Part shown: positions 37,863 to 46,153 of the stretch, piece by piece | Position numbering within the stretch: the stretch's first letter is position 1 | Layout: every line of letters starts with the position of its first letter | NCBI GenBank assembly: GCA_039028635.1 | Contig: JBCCHV010000001.1 | Span: 62,001-126,000 of the forward strand | Origin: Acidobacteriota bacterium | GTDB taxonomy: Bacteria > Acidobacteriota > Thermoanaerobaculia > Multivoradales > JBCCEF01 | Length of the DNA stretch: 64,000 bases | Direction of reading: 5' to 3' | Notes under the pieces: generated by a model | What the model was told of the DNA's origin: nothing | What the model saw: only the letters and a program-made list of their open reading frames with translations | The model's database searches: none | Position numbers and translations under genes: made by a program

Positions 37863-39245
37863 ATGAGCGCACCTCTGCCGTTGCTCCTCGATTCCGCCGA
37901 CCTCTGCCTGGCAACGGACCTGTATCAACTGACCATGGCGGCCGCCTACGAGCGCCGCCGTCAGGCTGGCGAAGAAGAGCCGCGAGCGACCTTCGAGCTT
38001 TGGGTCCGGAGGTTCCCGAACCAGCGCAACTTCCTGGTCTTCGCCGGCCTCGATCAGGCCCTGGCGGCCCTGCAGCGCCTGCGCTTCGGTGCCGAGCAAC
38101 TCGACTATCTGCGCTCTTTGCCAGCCTTTGCGGACGTCGAGCGGTCGTTCTTCGACACCCTGGCGGAGTTTCGTTTCCAGGGCGATGTCCGGGCGTTGCC
38201 GGAGGGTACGATCTTCTTTCCGGGAGCGCCGGTGATGAGCGTTCACGGCAGCTTCCTGGAAGCACAGATCGTCGAGACCCTGTTGCTGTCGATCGTCAAC
38301 TTTCAGTCCTCGATCGCCAGCAAGGCGGCCCGGCTGCGCTTGGCGGCAGGATCGCGGGCGCGCCTGGCGGAGTTCGGTGGGCGACGAGCCCACGGTCCCC
38401 AGGCGGCGACCTGGGCGGCCCGCGCCGCCTTCGTCGGTGGGTTCGATGCCACCTCGAACCTGCTCGCCGGCCAGCGCGAGGGAATTCCGGTGGTCGGCAC
38501 CATGGCCCACAGCTTCGTGATGTCCTTCCAGTCGGAGGTCGAGGCCTTCCGCCACTACCACGAGGTCTTCCCCCAGCAATCGATCCTGCTGGTCGACACC
38601 TACGACAGCTTGACCGGCGTTCGTCGCGCCCTGTCCACCGGCCTGCCCTTCCGGGGTATCCGCCTCGACAGCGGCGATCTCGGCGAGCTCGCCCGGGAGG
38701 CGCGTCAGCTGCTCGACGGCGCCGGGCGCTCCGATGCCGAGATCTTCGTCTCCGGCGATCTCGACGAACGTCGCATCGCCGAGCTGCGCGCCGCCGGAGC
38801 ACCGATCGACGCCTTCGGTGTCGGTACCGAGCTCTCGACCTCCGCCGACGCGCCGGCCTTGAGTGGGGTCTACAAGCTGGTCGAGTCTTTCCGCGGCGGC
38901 CGGCGTTTGTTGCACTACAAGGGCAGCCGGGGAAAGGTCAGCTATCCCGGTCTCAAACAGGTGGTCCGGACCTATGTGCAAGGCGTCATGGAGCACGACC
39001 GGGTGGTTCCTGCCGGCGAGCGCGAGCCGACCGCCGGAGCCGGCCGCCGGCTGCTGCGCGCGGTGATGCGCCAGGGTGAGGTTATCGAGCGTAGCTCCGC
39101 CGCCGAGGGACGACGACGCTGCCTCGAGGAGCTCGAGACCCTGCCTCTTCGGCTGCGCTCCCTCGAACCTTGCCGCAATGCCCCTTACCGGGTCGAGGTC
39201 GATCAGCGCCTGGTCGAGGCTCTCGAGTGCCTGGAGACCCATTGA
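37863..39245 (+). CDS. pncB: Nicotinate phosphoribosyltransferase
   Basis: 460-aa NAPRTase, which makes nicotinate mononucleotide from nicotinate and PRPP in NAD salvage. Visible motifs: ATDLYQLTMAAAY near the N-terminus, FELWVRRFPNQRNFLVFAGL, a FGGRRAHGPQAA block, FVGGFDATSNLLAG and GTMAHSFVMSF around the PRPP site, the RLDSGDL motif and GVGTELSTS. All are typical of the family. Probably leaderless. Its TGA stop overlaps the TTG start of the next gene. NAD salvage near the NADH/NAD+ sensor rex is suggestive but they are on opposite strands. Confidence 0.95.
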   Translation: MSAPLPLLLDSADLCLATDLYQLTMAAAYERRRQAGEEEPRATFELWVRRFPNQRNFLVFAGLDQALAALQRLRFGAEQLDYLRSLPAFADVERSFFDTLAEFRFQGDVRALPEGTIFFPGAPVMSVHGSFLEAQIVETLLLSIVNFQSSIASKAARLRLAAGSRARLAEFGGRRAHGPQAATWAARAAFVGGFDATSNLLAGQREGIPVVGTMAHSFVMSFQSEVEAFRHYHEVFPQQSILLVDTYDSLTGVRRALSTGLPFRGIRLDSGDLGELAREARQLLDGAGRSDAEIFVSGDLDERRIAELRAAGAPIDAFGVGTELSTSADAPALSGVYKLVESFRGGRRLLHYKGSRGKVSYPGLKQVVRTYVQGVMEHDRVVPAGEREPTAGAGRRLLRAVMRQGEVIERSSAAEGRRRCLEELETLPLRLRSLEPCRNAPYRVEVDQRLVEALECLETH

Positions 39246-40921
39246 GGCCGCGTTCCCTGGCCCTCCTCTGGGGGGGTGTGGCTCTGCTGTGCCGGCTACC
39301 GTTCGCGGCCCGGCGGTTGTGGGATCACGACTCGATCCAGTTCGCCCTCGGCGCCGAGGCCTTCGACCTCGCCGCCCATCACCCCCATCCGCCCGGTTAT
39401 CCCCTCTATATCGGGGCGCTGAAAGCCCTCGCTGCCCTCGGTCTGTCGCCGTTGGCGGGAATGGTGCTGCTCTCGGCCCTGGGAGCCGCCTTGGGAGCCG
39501 CCTGCTGTTTCCTGCTGGTTCACCGTTGGTCCGAGGAGGCCTCGACCGCCAGCCTCGCGGCAGCCCTCTACGTGTCGAATCCACTGCTCTGGTTTTACGG
39601 TGAGCTGCCTCTGATATACGCCCTCGAGGGTGGAGTCACGGTGGCTCTGGCGTACCTTGCCGTGGCGATGGCGGATAGCCAGCGCTCCTTCCTGCTCGCC
39701 TGCGTCGCCTTCGCCCTCGCCGGCGGCCTGCGGCCTTCGACCCTGGTGCTGCTCTTTCCGCTCTTTCTCTTCGGCCTGTTCCAGGGACTGAAGGAGGGGC
39801 GCCTGGGCTGGCGACAGGTACCCTGGGGAGCCTTCGCCGGCCTGGTGGCGGTCGCCGCCTGGCTGGTTCCTCTGCTGGCGGCGGCCGGTGGTCATGCCGC
39901 CTACCGCGAGCTCAGCGGCGGTCACTTCGAAACCCTCCTGCCCCAGACATCGGTGCTCTATGGAGCCGGCCTCGGTGCCCTGGCCCACAACCTGGAGGTG
40001 CTCATCAAGTGGGCCCTGCAAGGTCTGGTTCCGGCGTTCATCGTGTTGTTGGTGGCGTTCGTCCTGCAGCCGCGGGGCTGGATCAGGGGGCTGCGCGAGC
40101 TGTGGCGGAGGACGCCGTGGTTGCTGGCCTGGGGGCTCCCTCCGGTCCTGTTCTTCGCTCTCTTCCACGTCACCAAGGCGGGATACACGCTGATCCACCT
40201 GCCGGCTCTGCTGGTCGCCAGCGGCCTCCTCCTGGGGGCCTGGCTGCGAGCCGGCCGCCGCGACGTCGGGATCCGGCTGGCGATCACCCTGGCTTTGGTG
40301 AGTGGTGCCGGGCTGTTCTTCTTCGGGGCCGATCGGCGGCCCGATCAGGCCCGCGCCTGGGCGGTGCTGCGGCACGAGCACAACCTGACCGCTCTGCGCG
40401 CTTACGAGCGCGAGCTCGACGAAATGGTGACGCGGGTGCAGGCCTTCGATCCCGCGACGACGGCCCTCGCCGGAGTCGAGCTGGCGGGGACCGGGGCCGC
40501 CGGCGCCGATGGCTTCCTCTACTCCTGGCATCGTCACCTGCAGTGGTTCCTACCGCGCTACGAGGCCTTTTTCCTGGCGCCCCAGGCCGGCCTCGTCGAG
40601 CACACCACGGGGGGGCACCGACGGTTTCGCCGCACCGGCACGGTGGCTCAGCTCCCGGACGGGGTCAGCACGCTACTCCTGGTGTTGGCGGGTCTACCGC
40701 AGGAGCGCCTTGGGCTGCCGGCGGCGGAGGTCCTGTGGCGCGGCGACCAGTTCGTGCTGCTCCGACTGGTGGCTCGCCGCCCGTTGCAGCTCGGCGGGCT
40801 CGAGATCAGGCCGGCGCCGAGCTCTGCAGGAGAAACGCCAGCTCTTCGAGATGAACCCGAAGGTCGACGTTCTTCAACGGCGTCCCCGGGCGCGGGCGAA
40901 CTCTCTGGCGGGCGAAATTGA
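39242..40921 (+). CDS. Polytopic membrane glycosyltransferase-like protein
   Basis: 559 aa when started at TTG 39242, which overlaps the pncB stop (TTGA) and has a GGAG SD 6 nt upstream. About ten membrane helices span residues 8-380. The first periplasmic loop reads WDHDSIQFALGAEAFDLAAHHPHPPGYPLY, with acidic residues in the position of the catalytic Asp of GT-C glycosyltransferases (PMT/ArnT/DUF2723 type). The last ~190 residues are soluble. It presumably transfers a sugar from a polyprenyl carrier in the periplasm. The final 116 nt lie antisense to the end of rex, so the C-terminal tail of about 38 residues is low-complexity. Confidence 0.75.
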   Translation: MRPRSLALLWGGVALLCRLPFAARRLWDHDSIQFALGAEAFDLAAHHPHPPGYPLYIGALKALAALGLSPLAGMVLLSALGAALGAACCFLLVHRWSEEASTASLAAALYVSNPLLWFYGELPLIYALEGGVTVALAYLAVAMADSQRSFLLACVAFALAGGLRPSTLVLLFPLFLFGLFQGLKEGRLGWRQVPWGAFAGLVAVAAWLVPLLAAAGGHAAYRELSGGHFETLLPQTSVLYGAGLGALAHNLEVLIKWALQGLVPAFIVLLVAFVLQPRGWIRGLRELWRRTPWLLAWGLPPVLFFALFHVTKAGYTLIHLPALLVASGLLLGAWLRAGRRDVGIRLAITLALVSGAGLFFFGADRRPDQARAWAVLRHEHNLTALRAYERELDEMVTRVQAFDPATTALAGVELAGTGAAGADGFLYSWHRHLQWFLPRYEAFFLAPQAGLVEHTTGGHRRFRRTGTVAQLPDGVSTLLLVLAGLPQERLGLPAAEVLWRGDQFVLLRLVARRPLQLGGLEIRPAPSSAGETPALRDEPEGRRSSTASPGAGELSGGRN

Positions 40922-41441
40922 GCACGGCGGCGATGCCCGCCTCGACCAGCGCGTCGTAGCCCGCCTGCGCCTCCTCCGGTGGTACCGCCAGCACGCCGAT
41001 GCGGGCGCCGGACTCCCGAACCACCCGCTCGAGGTCGTCGAAGGCGGCCACCTCGACGGAGCCGAGGTCGAGCCCGATCTTCTGCGGATCCCGGTCGACC
41101 GCCGCCACCACTCGAAAAGCGCCCTGATTGAAGCCGATGTGATGGACCAAGGCGCTGCCGAGGTTGCCCATGCCGACGATGATCAGAGGATGGCCTTGGT
41201 CGAGGCCGAGCAGTCGACTCAGGCTATCGGCCAGCTCCTGGACGCGGTAGCCGACGCCGCGGACGCCGAAATCACCGAACTGAGCCAGGTCCTTGCGGAT
41301 CTGAGCCGCCGACAGGTCGAACTCGTGGGCGAGCTGGCGGGAGGAGATCCGGTCGATGCCCTTGGCCTGGAGCTGGCGCAGACAGCGCAAGTAGATCGAG
41401 AGCCGGTTGAGGCTGCGGGGGGAGACGTCGGGAGTGCTCAT
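40806..41441 (-). CDS. rex: Redox-sensing transcriptional repressor Rex
   Basis: 211-aa Rex. The N-terminal winged helix (about 5-80) reads SLNRLSIYLRCLRQLQ, ISSRQLAHEFDLSAAQIRKDLAQFGDFGVRGVGY. The Rossmann domain has IIVGMGNLGSALVHH, the acidic adenosine-ribose residue in VAAVDRDPQKIG, and a C-terminal swap helix. Rex dimers bind TTGTGAA-type operators when NAD+ is high and leave when NADH rises. The ATG overlaps the stop of the NuoN-like gene (ATGA). It therefore belongs to the nuo-like operon, which has a perfect Rex operator upstream, so it should be autoregulated. It overlaps the convergent glycosyltransferase by 116 nt. Confidence 0.96.
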   Translation of the reverse strand: MSTPDVSPRSLNRLSIYLRCLRQLQAKGIDRISSRQLAHEFDLSAAQIRKDLAQFGDFGVRGVGYRVQELADSLSRLLGLDQGHPLIIVGMGNLGSALVHHIGFNQGAFRVVAAVDRDPQKIGLDLGSVEVAAFDDLERVVRESGARIGVLAVPPEEAQAGYDALVEAGIAAVLNFARQRVRPRPGTPLKNVDLRVHLEELAFLLQSSAPA

Positions 41442-42772
41442 AGGGTTCTCAGGAGTTCGCCGATCAGACCGAGACCGCGGTGGAGCCAAGAGGCTGGCAC
41501 GGTGCCGAGGAGAATCAGCAGGGCGGCGGCTGCCAGCGAGGTCGCGGCCGGTCGCGAGGTTTGCGCTCGCCAGGCTGTCGGAAGCCAGCGCAGGACGAAG
41601 AGCAGCGAAAGAAACACCACCAACAGCAAGAGAGTTCCCAGCCAGGAACCGAAGTGGTGTCCGAGGAGAGCCGGGCGAAGGCGGTATCCGAAGACCGGTG
41701 GCAGACCTGCGAGGCCGACGAGAGCGACCAGCAGAGTCAGGCGATGGCCGAGACCGGCGAGGGAAGAGACCGCGGGGTCGCGACCCGACGACCCTGCCGC
41801 AGGGGGTCGGATGAGATTGGCGTTGCCTGCGAGCTGGCTTCCGGAGTCTGCCGTCGAGGCGACGGCGGAGAGTAGCAGAGCCGCCATGCCTAGGGTGAGC
41901 TCGAAGGGCGACCCGAGCTGCGCCAGGAGGAGCAGGAGGCCCGCCGAGGCGACGACGGCGCGGTCGACGGCGCGTCGCCAGTGCCGGGCGAAGAGAGCAC
42001 TGCCGTAGCCCCACAGGCCGACGACGACCGCGATCGCCGGTGCCAGCCACTGCAACGTCGTGGACGCTGGGCCGAGGGTCTGGAGAAGTCGGAAGGCAAT
42101 CCAGAGACCGGCGGCGATCGGCGCGAGTCTCGCGACGAGGGGAGTCGCCGTGGCGGTCACCAGACCGAGGGGAAGGGCGAGGCCGAGGAGTAGGCAGAGG
42201 GCCCCGGCTTCGGCGAGGGCGGGATTTCCGGTGAGCCCGATCTGCCAGGCATCGACGATCGAGGTCAGTTGGCCGCTGCCGGTTTCGCCGACGATCAGCG
42301 TCGCGCCGACGGCGAGCAGAGCCAACGCGAGGGATTCCCAGCGCAGGCTTCGGACAGGCGCCGGATCGGCCTCCATGAGCAGACGATGGCAAAGCCACCA
42401 GATCGCCAGGGCGAGTACGACGGCGAAGAGATCGGCGGCGCGCATCGACCAGGCCAGGGAGGCCGCGGCGGCCAGGTGCAGGGCGATTCGCCGCGGCGAT
42501 TCCTCAGCCGCGACGGTGACGGCGACAGCGGCGATCATCAGGCCGAGAAAAAGGGCCAGGCCGGGCTGCGGCGCGAGGGCTCCCCGGAGACCGACGGGTG
42601 AGCTGTGCCAGAGGGCGAAGCCGGAAACCGCCAGCAGGCCGACCGCGGCCCGCGGCACGATGCCCGGGAAGGCGGCGACCTTCGCTCCCGCGAGGAGGCT
42701 TCCCAGGGCCAGCAAGAGAGCCCCGGAAAGCAGCAGGAGCTCACCCGGAAAGGATTGGAGCAGGGCAGTCAT
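41438..42772 (-). CDS. Divergent NuoN-like membrane subunit
   Basis: 444 aa, almost entirely hydrophobic, with 12-14 predicted helices. The segment LVALVGLAGLPPVFGYRLRPALLG matches the NuoN/antiporter-like signature LaGLPPt.GF..K, but with Arg where the proton-path Lys is expected. Only one lysine (about residue 31) is present in the whole protein, whereas NuoN has several conserved intramembrane lysines. It is coupled by ATGA overlaps to the NuoK-like gene upstream and rex downstream. Likely a degenerate or repurposed complex I/Mrp-type subunit; pumping is doubtful. Confidence 0.6.
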   Translation of the reverse strand: MTALLQSFPGELLLLSGALLLALGSLLAGAKVAAFPGIVPRAAVGLLAVSGFALWHSSPVGLRGALAPQPGLALFLGLMIAAVAVTVAAEESPRRIALHLAAAASLAWSMRAADLFAVVLALAIWWLCHRLLMEADPAPVRSLRWESLALALLAVGATLIVGETGSGQLTSIVDAWQIGLTGNPALAEAGALCLLLGLALPLGLVTATATPLVARLAPIAAGLWIAFRLLQTLGPASTTLQWLAPAIAVVVGLWGYGSALFARHWRRAVDRAVVASAGLLLLLAQLGSPFELTLGMAALLLSAVASTADSGSQLAGNANLIRPPAAGSSGRDPAVSSLAGLGHRLTLLVALVGLAGLPPVFGYRLRPALLGHHFGSWLGTLLLLVVFLSLLFVLRWLPTAWRAQTSRPAATSLAAAALLILLGTVPASWLHRGLGLIGELLRTL

Positions 42773-43041
42773 GGCTGCGAACGGGTGGTAGAGGTTGGCC
42801 GGCGACGGACCGCCCGCGAGAGGCGAATCGCCAGCACCCCTTGGACCAAGGCGATGGCCACCAAGACCAGCGACAGGAACGGCCGGCGGGAGGGAACCAG
42901 CAGCTCGAGGTAGGTGAGCAGCAGGAGGTGGCCGCCGAGCAAGAGCACCTGGCCCGAGAGAGGATCGCGCCGGCGCAGCAGGACGGCGGCACCGCCGGCA
43001 CCGAGGAGCAGGAAGGCGGTGGCGAAGAAGGTGGCGCTCAC
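42769..43041 (-). CDS. Divergent NuoK-like small membrane subunit
   Basis: 90 aa with three predicted helices (about 3-21, 29-48 and 53-73), the same topology and length as NuoK/MrpC. AVLLRRRDPLSGQVLLLGGHLLLL lies where NuoK has ..IRRN.L..LI.LE.M.N; the TM2 Glu is replaced by Gly/His. VAIALVQGVLAIRLSR lies where NuoK has AAAEAAIGLA; the TM3 Glu is replaced by Val/Gln. GTG start in a GTGA overlap with the NuoJ-like gene. The assignment rests on topology, position and weak similarity. Confidence 0.5.
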   Translation of the reverse strand: MSATFFATAFLLLGAGGAAVLLRRRDPLSGQVLLLGGHLLLLTYLELLVPSRRPFLSLVLVAIALVQGVLAIRLSRAVRRRPTSTTRSQP

Positions 43042-43502
43042 GGCGAATCCCGGCCGTCGTCGTGGTCACCACCGATGGTCGGCGAGTCCCAAGGCCGCAG
43101 CAGGCCTGCGGTAGTGATCAACAGGAAGAGGGTGGCGAGGAGCAAGACCTCGAAGGGCTGCAGCGGCTGCGAGGGCGGCGGCGCGGCGGGCGGGGCCGGC
43201 ACCGCCGACTGCCAGGCGATCATCGCCAGGACAAGACAGCCTGCGAACCAGCCGATCGCGGCCAGGATCGAGGCCAGAGACGGCCTTGCCGGCAGTTGCG
43301 AGGGTGGCGGCCAGCGCAGCACGAGGAGGGCAAGCGCACCATGGACGATGGCGAGCATCGGATAACCCCAGGCCGCTTCCAAACCCGCCGTGGCCAGCCA
43401 GAGAGCGGCGAGGGCGACCGTCGCCCAGCGTCCTCGGCCGAAGGCGGCGCAGAGACCGCAGGCGAGCAGCAAGAGGGGCAAAATCACGACGGGCTCGATC
43501 AC
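43038..43502 (-). CDS. NuoJ-like membrane protein (first gene of the nuo-like/rex operon)
   Basis: 154 aa with five likely helices: four in the first 100 residues and one near 118-138 (FEVLLLATLFLLITTAGLL) that resembles the last NuoJ helix. Position before the NuoK-like gene fits NuoJ, but sequence similarity is weak and this is mainly a context call. GTG start at 43502 has only a weak SD; the 240-nt leader back to the promoter leaves room for a different start. It is the first gene downstream of the Rex operator. The C-terminal tail is polar (GGDHDDGRDSP). Confidence 0.42.
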   Translation of the reverse strand: MIEPVVILPLLLLACGLCAAFGRGRWATVALAALWLATAGLEAAWGYPMLAIVHGALALLVLRWPPPSQLPARPSLASILAAIGWFAGCLVLAMIAWQSAVPAPPAAPPPSQPLQPFEVLLLATLFLLITTAGLLRPWDSPTIGGDHDDGRDSP

Positions 43503-43748
43503 ATCCGAGGCCCATGGCGATGGGACCAGACATTCCTACCGGCCCCTGATCGGGCTATCCCGAGCTTTTCACCAGATCTTCCCGGCACAGATGTAGGTTC
43601 CAAAATCTCCTGCGTTGTCCGCCGGCTGCACGATTCGCAGCACGTCGAGTCAAGGTGCTTCTCTGCGCCGACGGATGCCGTGAACCTTCAGCAGCCTAAG
43701 GCCTTTCCCAGCGGATCTGGTGAGTAGATCGGGCGAGGAAAGCGACTG

Positions 43749-43778
43749 AGTCTACCGACCTTGTGAATGGTTTCACAA
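43749..43778 (-). promoter_or_regulatory. Promoter of the nuo-like/rex operon
   Basis: On the minus strand TTGTGA (43773-43778), an 18-bp spacer and TAGACT (43749-43754). The -35 and most of the spacer lie inside the Rex operator, so a bound Rex dimer would block RNA polymerase. Predicted transcription start near 43742, about 240 nt before the first gene. Confidence 0.62.
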
Positions 43779-43779
43779 G
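43760..43779. promoter_or_regulatory. Rex operator (ROP)
   Basis: CTTGTGAA-TGGT-TTCACAAG: perfect 8-bp arms and a 4-nt spacer. It contains an exact match to the Rex consensus TTGTGAA-N4-TTCACAA. It lies 4 nt beyond the end of the sigma factor gene and upstream of the operon that ends with rex. Family knowledge of the consensus and the local rex gene make the assignment strong. Confidence 0.92.
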
Positions 43780-43783
43780 CGGT

Positions 43784-44347
43784 TCAGGCCTTCATCTCTT
43801 CCTTGAGCCAGATCCTGGCGCGCATCCAGTCCCGCTGCACGGTGCGGGTCGAAACCTCCAGGGCTTCCGCCGTTTCGTCCTCCGTCAAGCCGGCGAAAAA
43901 GCGACACTCGACGATCCGAACCAGGCGCTCATCGCGGCTCGCCAGGCGGTTCAGCGCCTCGTGCAGGGACATCACCCAGCCGGCGTCCATCTCGATCGCC
44001 GCCTGGGCCTCGTCGAGGCTGGTGTGGTGCTGGCCTCCACCCCGTTTGGCGGCGAGCCGGTTGCGGGCGTAGTCGACCAGAATCTGGCGCATGGCGCGCG
44101 CCGAAATGGCGAAAAAGTGGCCGCGATCCTTGAAGCCAGCGCGGGTCTGGTCGACCATCTTGAGGTAGGCCTCGTGCACCAGACCGGTGGTGTCGAGAGT
44201 GCGTCCCGGGGAGCGCTGACGAATCTGGCGCCGGGCGATGCGCCGCAGGTCTTCGTAGACCAGCGGCATCAGGCGACCAAAGGCCTCCTTGTCGCCACGA
44301 CCGTGGTCGAGCAGGATCTGAGTGATGTCGGCGCTCGGCTCGTCCAT
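43784..44347 (-). CDS. ECF-like sigma factor (TIGR02999-type)
   Basis: 187-aa sigma-70-family factor. Region 2: FGRLMPLVYEDLRRIARRQI, LDTTGLVHEAYLKMVDQ, GHFFAISARAMRQILVDYAR. Region 4: RIVECRFFAGLTEDETAEALEVSTRTVQRDWMRARIWL. The wording of these motifs (HEAYL, FFAISARAMRQILVDYARNRLAAKRGGG) is that of the TIGR02999/SigX6-like group common in Acidobacteria and Planctomycetes. SD GGAGG, and a TAGAAT -10-like hexamer lies 40 nt before the ATG (44387-44392). No anti-sigma or kinase is adjacent. It lies between modC and the Rex operator. Confidence 0.88.
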   Translation of the reverse strand: MDEPSADITQILLDHGRGDKEAFGRLMPLVYEDLRRIARRQIRQRSPGRTLDTTGLVHEAYLKMVDQTRAGFKDRGHFFAISARAMRQILVDYARNRLAAKRGGGQHHTSLDEAQAAIEMDAGWVMSLHEALNRLASRDERLVRIVECRFFAGLTEDETAEALEVSTRTVQRDWMRARIWLKEEMKA

Positions 44348-44399: not shown

Positions 44400-45485
44400 T
44401 CAGGGCGGCCGACTCTCGTAGAGCTGGCAGCCGGCGGCCTTGAGGACGACGAAGACCTCGCCGTCCGGAGCGAGCTCGAGGTCATGACAGGCACGCGCCG
44501 TGACCTCGGCTCGCAGGCGGGGTGCTCCCGGCTCTCGGCCGAGGCTCAGAACGGCCAGTCGCACCGCATCGCCGGCACTCACGGAGACCACCCGGGCGGG
44601 CAGGATGTTCTGCGCCGAGAGTCCCGTCGGCCGCGGCCGGGCGAGCAGGATCTCGCGCGCTGGGATGCCCACCAGGAGCTCTTGGCCGACGGCCGCCCGC
44701 GAGCGCGGCACCACCAGCTCCGGGCCCACCGCGAGGGCGACCCGGCTGGTGCCTTCGGCATGTTCGAGGAGGCGCGCCGGGATGATGTTCTCGAAGCCAT
44801 CGGGGCCGACCAGGCCGGGATCCGCCAGGACCGCCGCGGGATCGCCGGCAGTGCGCAACCGCCCGGCCTCGAGGAGGAGCACGTGATCGCACAGCGCCTG
44901 CACCTCCCGTGGATCGTGGGAGACCAGCAGCATCGGAACGGCGAGCTCCTGCCGCAGGCGGCGCAGGAACGGCAGCAGGCGGCGGCGCAGGGGCAGGTCG
45001 AGGGAGGACAGCGGTTCGTCGAGCAGCAGGAGGTGGGGATCGGCGCACAGGGCGCGGCCCAGGGCGACCCGCTGCCGTTCGCCGCCGGAGAGCAGCGCCG
45101 GCCGGCGTTCGAGCAGATGACCGATCTCGAGCAGCTCGACGATGCCGCGGAAGGCGGAGCCGTCGCCGGCGACGGCGCGGGCGCCGGCGAGCAGATTGCG
45201 TCGCACCGAGAGGTGGGGAAAGAGCAGGCCTTCCTGGGGCACATAGCCGAGGCGTCGGTGTTCCGTCCGGCGGTGGATGCGGCGCTCGCTGTCGAGCCAC
45301 ACCTGATCATCGAGGACGATGCGTCCGCGGGCGCCGCGGCGCAGGCCGGCGATCGCCTCGATCAGGCTGGTCTTGCCCGACCCGGAGGGGCCGAAGATGC
45401 CGGTGACCCGGTGTCGGGTGGTGAAGCTCACCTCGAGGGAAAATCCCTCGAGCGGTAGGAACAGGTCGACGGCCAAGGACCTCAT
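44400..45485 (-). CDS. modC: Molybdate ABC transporter ATP-binding protein
   Basis: 361-aa ATPase of the molybdate importer. Walker [11 protein letters not shown]-loop [13 protein letters not shown], signature [15 protein letters not shown], Walker [13 protein letters not shown], and H-loop SHDPREV. After residue ~240 comes a C-terminal Mop/TOBE-type region ([24 protein letters not shown]), the oxyanion-sensing domain typical of ModC. It overlaps modB by four bases, which with modA upstream confirms the molybdate assignment. Last gene of the mos-ABC-mod unit. Confidence 0.94.
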
Positions 45486-46153
45486 GAGCGCCTCGTCGGT
45501 TTGCCGGCGAGAGCTTCCGAGGCCAGGATGGCGACCAGACCGGCGGCCAAGGCGACGGCCAGAAGGACGTAGGCTTCGGATTCATTGCCGGCTTGCTGGG
45601 CCGAGAAGATGGCCTCCGCCAAGGTCTGGGTTTTGCCGGGAATGTTGCCGGCCAGGGTGACGGTGGCGCCGAATTCTCCGAGGGCGCGGGTGAATCCCAG
45701 GATGGCGGCGGCGAGGAGGCCGCGACCGGCCAGCGGCAAGGTGGTGCGGAAGAAGGTCTTGCGCCGGCCGTGGCCGAGGGTTCGGGTCATCATCTCGAGG
45801 CGGGGATCGATGCCCTCGAAGGTCACCCGGGCGGTACGCACCACCAGCGGCAGAGCCATCACGGCGGCGGCCAAGACGGCGCCCTTCCAGGTCAACAGCA
45901 GGCCGAGGTCGATGCCGAGCATGCGCCGGCCGAGGGGACCGTCGTCGGCGAGCAACTGGAGGAGGAGAAAGCCGACCGCCGTCGGCGGCAAGACCAGCGG
46001 GAGCAGAAACAGGGTCGAGAGCAGGCGCTTGCCGGGAAACTCGAAGCGTGCCAGGCAGTAGGCCACCAGGGTCCCCGGGATCAACACCAACAGGGTGGCC
46101 ACGGAGGCCACCTGAAGGGAGAGGCGAAGGGCGATCCAGAGGCCGTCAGACAC
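45482..46153 (-). CDS. modB: Molybdate ABC transporter permease
   Basis: 223-aa inner-membrane permease with five or six helices. The EAA loop reads [26 protein letters not shown], followed by [25 protein letters not shown], the hallmark of ModB/CysT-type permeases. GTG start at 46153 lies inside the last codons of modA (8-nt overlap), and the end overlaps modC, so the three are translationally coupled. Confidence 0.95.

Follow-up and report, generated by a model that had tools for sequence, protein, structure and literature searches.

The window analysed here is a stretch of 64,000 nucleotides from an Acidobacteriota bacterium of the class Thermoanaerobaculia (assembly GCA_039028635.1, contig JBCCHV010000001.1, positions 62,001 to 126,000), whose genome comprises 6.28 Mb in 117 contigs and is 95% complete. 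Its minus strand carries a compact block of four genes, in the order J, K, N and rex, in which the gene of an NADH-sensing repressor directly follows three genes for membrane proteins related, to differing degrees, to subunits of respiratory complex I. This block is probably the tail of a nuo operon (H-J-K-L-M-N-rex) that survived the loss of complex I in a lineage carrying the Na+-translocating NADH:quinone oxidoreductase (Na+-NQR). The four genes are:

43038..43502, minus strand: J, GTG start, 154 amino acids, membrane protein considered NuoJ-derived by position
42769..43041, minus strand: K, GTG start, 90 amino acids, likely NuoK-derived, both proton-path glutamates gone
41438..42772, minus strand: N, ATG start, 444 amino acids, about 12 transmembrane (TM) helices, NuoN-derived, invariant Glu and Lys residues gone
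40806..41441, minus strand: rex, 211 amino acids, NADH-sensing repressor (NCBIfam Rex, 5.2e-68)

Each gene shares four bases with the next, GTGA at the J/K junction and ATGA at the K/N and N/rex junctions, and both coordinates and overlaps agree with an earlier note on this DNA, which had described J-, K- and N-like genes coupled to rex. For J, K and N, the frame as annotated is preferred by six-frame codon scoring and keeps the codon pattern of the genome. The rex product contains winged-helix and Rossmann domains (PF06971, PF02629), with the GxGxxG motif present as GMGNLG at 90-95, and matches solved Rex structures at 8e-44. No strong Shine-Dalgarno sequence lies ahead of rex, and its translation would be coupled to that of N.

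The same succession of genes is found in related genomes as part of a complete operon. Nine relatives from the order were sampled (Thermoanaerobaculia and related Acidobacteriota metagenome-assembled genomes). In all nine, rex lies directly after nuoN of an ordinary nuo operon, and in several of them, where the contig is long enough, the order H-J-K-L-M-N-rex is visible, with rex as the last gene. Moreover, the four-gene block, which the earlier note had proposed to seek in related genomes, was found in the one congener compared (G001), behind modA-modB-modC, where J, K and N code for 156, 88 and 462 amino acids and are followed by rex. The J/K and K/N overlaps are identical in the two species, and N and rex of the congener are 13 nt apart, without overlap. 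Since the block recurs in the congener with similar sizes and overlaps, it is more than a chance arrangement. An origin from the nuo tail explains why rex adjoins J, K and N, and it takes the place of the earlier idea of a newly composed small module, which is contradicted both by the ...nuoL-nuoM-nuoN-rex tail of the relatives and by the loss of proton-path residues described below. From gene order, we therefore favour a shrunken remnant of an ancestral operon over a newly assembled module.

The ancestry of the three membrane proteins was assessed with class-level Nuo profiles, using 1000 hydropathy-preserving shuffles of each protein as controls. On the NuoN profile, window N scores 27.0 bits against a shuffle maximum of 6.5, and congener N reaches 136 bits, exceeding all of its shuffles. 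The score of window K on the NuoK profile (9.1 bits) is marginal, being equalled by 2 of the 1000 shuffles; congener K scores 40.9 bits against a shuffle maximum of 16.0, and congener J scores 27.7 bits on the NuoJ profile against 11.0. In Pfam, congener N matches PF00361 at 4.8e-14 and congener K matches PF00420 at 6e-5, slightly below the curated cut-off. Searches of Pfam and NCBIfam with J, K and N of the window returned nothing above cut-off, and a contig search with window N alone found no relatives. A profile built from the two N sequences had NuoN as its only match in the PDB, and within the order it retrieved the NuoN lying beside rex in many genomes bearing complex I. In the tree, both N proteins group with NuoN (100/100), apart from NuoM, NuoL and the Mrp proteins; their exact placement is unsure because their branches are very long (5.05 and 3.12, against 0.03-0.37 for the others). 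A low-confidence structure model of N (predicted local distance difference test, pLDDT, 59) matches NuoN, NdhB and MrpD, and its match to NuoN is supportive rather than independent since its alignment included functional NuoN; the model of J is likewise of low confidence. Thus, among the three complex I-like subunits announced by the earlier note, N is derived from complex I as judged by profile and tree, K is likely to be, and J is assigned by position, its counterpart in the congener being a clear NuoJ.

The lineage itself appears, from its genome sequences, to have lost respiratory complex I. NuoD (PF00346) and NuoH (PF00146) are absent from both genomes of the genus in searches whose controls were positive, NuoE, F, G, B, C and I not having been searched genome-wide, and because these two are missing from both genomes the complex was apparently lost in the genus. 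The block itself is devoid of NuoL, NuoM, NuoH, NuoE, F, G, B, C and I, so that the absence of NuoL, NuoM and NuoH from the module, as claimed before, holds. Both the window genome and the congener carry Na+-NQR, with an nqrA-nqrB operon present; for Acidobacteria, a 2014 survey reported no nqr operon (PMC4014512). Across the order, a NuoD-family match was obtained in 25 of 61 genomes (in G010 the match is weak, and the protein may be a hydrogenase), and a strong NqrB/RnfD match (E below 1e-60) in 34 of the 36 genomes without NuoD, one of the remaining two being 88% complete. Complex I and NQR thus trade places across the order. Among its NuoD-less genomes, a NuoN-like remnant was found in the genus of the window only.

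The proton path of complex I is carried by invariant charges of NuoN and by the NuoK glutamates. One Glu and five Lys that are invariant in 14 of 14 functional NuoN proteins are all replaced in both relic N proteins, and the alignment shows both membrane glutamates of NuoK replaced in K of both species. Judging from these sequences, it is very unlikely that J, K and N still pump.

Upstream of J lie the candidate regulatory elements of the block, followed by its flanking genes:

43761..43778, minus strand: predicted Rex operator TTGTGAAACCATTCACAA, an exact palindrome, binding predicted from motif and regulon context
43749..43778, minus strand: possible weak promoter TTGTGA-18-TAGACT, overlapping the operator
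43503..43760, minus strand: leader of about 245-258 nt, non-coding by codon scoring
43784..44347, minus strand: gene of an extracytoplasmic function (ECF) sigma factor (PF07638, 5.9e-52), between modC and J
44400..46153, minus strand: flanking modC and modB of a molybdate-type transporter, neighbours of the block in the congener as well

The operator, which the earlier note had given as 43760-43779, that is with one flanking base per side, starts 5 nt past the stop codon of the ECF sigma gene, and J follows 258 nt downstream of it. Exact copies number only two in the 6.28 Mb genome; the second lies 65 nt before a multiheme-cytochrome gene heading an operon that resembles alternative complex III (ACIII). 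The promoter proposed earlier has the spacing described, with TAGACT at 43754-43749, 18 nt from TTGTGA; it is weak, since the pair agrees with the consensus at only 8 of 12 bases and was not reported by the promoter scan. No Rfam match was found in the leader.

The exact core motif was counted in 19 genomes of the order (loci L002, L122-L139 and L144-L161): each has 1-5 copies, and a backwards control pattern gave no hit in any of them. In 18 of the 19 the motif adjoins the ACIII operon, which is named from its gene layout and from partial domain matches. Further sites are found ahead of nqrA (6 loci), of ATP synthase genes (3), of sdh (2, of which Pfam assigned one and inspection by eye the other) and of rex itself. 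Since the motif recurs at respiratory operons, it marks a respiratory Rex regulon, and the sequence that the earlier note reported as a perfect Rex operator is, as its context indicates, a genuine one. A few exact copies precede other genes, such as similar aminotransferase-like genes in L153 and L156. Known Rex proteins repress at low NADH and are released at high NADH; in the window species, Rex would likewise repress its own operon at low NADH and release it at high NADH. The claim that Rex controls its own synthesis together with the membrane module is thus backed by the motif at this locus, and is not borne out in the congener, which keeps rex but shows no site upstream of the J-K-N-rex block even with 2 mismatches allowed, the ACIII site being the only one in its genome. 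Of the two losses at homologous loci, rex and operator, that together would have spoken against the earlier note, the congener thus shows one. The exact site is also absent from the long nuo-rex contigs of three relatives (G006, G017 and G037). Rex autoregulation is therefore not conserved at the locus, and the operator was either gained in the window genome or lost in the congener. In the congener modC stands directly before J, with no ECF sigma gene in between; the ECF sigma gene and/or the operator region was inserted in the window genome or lost in the congener.

Several observations bear on why J, K and N are still present as genes. Neighbouring genes of the two species have diverged to a synonymous distance (NG86 dS) of 0.7-1.3. 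In a simple drift model in which modern genes stand in for the ancestors, runs at 0.1 substitutions per site preserved J, K and N all open in no more than 4% of cases when indels were left out, and in 0 of 400 when they were included. In the same model, run at equilibrium G+C from 0.4 to 0.7, N started with a mean hydropathy of 0.9-1.0 and 11-13 TM helices and dropped to values between 0.60 and -0.35 and to 0.2-5.7 helices; window N has a grand average of hydropathy (GRAVY) of 0.97 and 12 TM helices. The hydrophobicity of J and K was simulated likewise, and the real genes surpass the simulated ones in both open frames and hydrophobicity. Codon-position identities and NG86 dN/dS were also considered as evidence of constraint, and were dropped when codon-shuffled controls gave equal values. 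Most likely, as far as sequence can tell, J, K and N are kept as open, membrane-like frames for a reason other than pumping.

Our best guess for this reason is a non-pumping membrane role. The three proteins would still be made and inserted in the membrane, no longer pumping, and may persist as a small subcomplex that is selected as a set of membrane proteins and not for ion chemistry. The membrane arm of complex I has the order A-J-K-N-M-L, and because J, K and N are neighbours in it, a residual J-K-N subcomplex is possible. We tentatively suggest that such a catalytically dead subcomplex has taken on a new role and is made together with the NADH sensor, here under its feedback; NQR, alternative complex III or Mrp might, for example, use it as a partner or scaffold. 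A number of points weigh against this proposal and the ancestry on which it builds. Two simple deletions, one removing L-M and the other all genes ahead of J, would yield the same trio. J of the window gives no signal on the NuoJ profile, where it is indistinguishable from its 1000 shuffles, so that it is placed by position only. Furthermore, window and congener share 28-29% identity in J, K and N, against 71% in rex, and this does not rise above the 30-31% of codon-shuffled controls; residue identity being at chance, no specific conserved function is visible. The expression of the three genes is itself predicted, retention is judged from two genomes of the family through a simple model, and the congener lacks the operator.

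The most serious competitor, which we consider unlikely, is that J, K and N are functionless and stay open since rex is translated by ribosomes finishing N, a stop or frameshift upstream thus silencing rex. The four-base overlaps all through the block, the lack of a strong Shine-Dalgarno sequence at rex, the chance-level identity and the missing catalytic residues all fit such a ribosome-transit leader. However, it leaves the kept hydrophobicity unexplained (GRAVY 0.97 and 12 TM helices in N, against a drift mean of at most about 0.6), and in the congener the frames are still open with 13 nt and no overlap between N and rex.

It is less probable still that the three genes are slowly vanishing pseudogenes whose frames are open by an accident of high G+C. 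Long spurious open reading frames are indeed common in this DNA, and the very long N branches, the lost catalytic residues and the identity at chance are what ongoing decay would produce. Against it, not one of the 400 runs with indels kept three frames at a divergence of 0.1 substitutions per site, far below that of the neighbouring genes; simulated hydrophobicity collapses at every G+C tried, and the annotated frames retain the genome codon pattern.

The view of the earlier note, a small, working, Rex-controlled module for ion translocation, of complex I or Mrp type, has in its favour the NuoN ancestry and fold, the Rex operator and the kept frames and TM helices, but we regard it as highly improbable, since N has lost all its proton-path charges and K both NuoK glutamates, residues are not conserved between the two species and the congener has no operator. 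Least probable is that the Mrp-type antiporter encoded on contig C35 took in J, K and N as additional subunits: such an operon is present and N-like proteins share its fold family, but the two loci are unlinked, and in the tree N falls with NuoN rather than with Mrp proteins. This operon (L059 11281-17905, contig C35 of G000) holds three strong PF00361 genes, the only ones found in the window genome, together with MnhB and MnhG, adjoins ATP synthase genes and is easily mistaken for complex I. An assignment of its PF00361 trio to ordinary complex I was rejected, as MnhB and MnhG are present and NuoD and NuoH missing.

Two further genes lie close to rex on the plus strand. An open reading frame of 583 amino acids (39170-40921), membrane-protein-like and without Pfam match, overlaps the 3' end of rex by about 116 bases on the opposite strand; if both are real, the two are convergent overlapping genes. 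Slightly further downstream of rex, a nicotinate phosphoribosyltransferase gene of NAD salvage (NAPRTase_N, 1.8e-29) occupies 37863-39245.

The preferred reading, a nuo tail that outlived its complex, offers a case of what remains after complex I loss, namely open transmembrane frames without pumping chemistry, and a testable one of dead subunits seemingly retained by selection. No description of such a complex I remnant was found in the literature, most subscription papers being outside the search. It also calls for caution, as such blocks should not be annotated as working complex I or antiporter. Moreover, for an order of Acidobacteriota that is chiefly known through metagenomes, the work outlines a Rex regulon comprising the operons of alternative complex III, Na+-NQR, ATP synthase and succinate dehydrogenase.

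Among known systems, the closest is the nuo tail nuoH-J-K-L-M-N-rex of Thermoanaerobaculia (L068, L069, L077, L079), which shares with the window block the J-K-...-N-rex order, the J/K/N ancestry and the terminal rex. In contrast to this tail, the block lacks L, M, H and the upstream genes in a genome without complex I, its subunits appear catalytically dead and fast-evolving, and in the window species a predicted Rex operator lies upstream. With Mrp-type Na+/H+ antiporters, whose MrpD is a NuoN-like subunit, window N shares the antiporter fold according to its low-confidence model; yet the block is not an Mrp operon, as it consists of J, K, N and rex only, with no Mnh subunit genes (MnhB, E, F and G all being absent), N groups with NuoN and the key lysines are missing. 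Finally, the operator is that of Staphylococcus aureus Rex, TTGTGAAW4TTCACAA (PMC2883068), and the Rex regulons of S. aureus and Streptomyces avermitilis (PMC5355995) have in common with that of this order the operator, the Rex family and respiratory operons as targets. Unlike in those regulons, rex of the window shares its operon with probable complex I relics, and its operator stands 258 nt away from J as the first gene, a distance that is about 60-80 nt for most sites at ACIII, ATP synthase and rex genes within the order.

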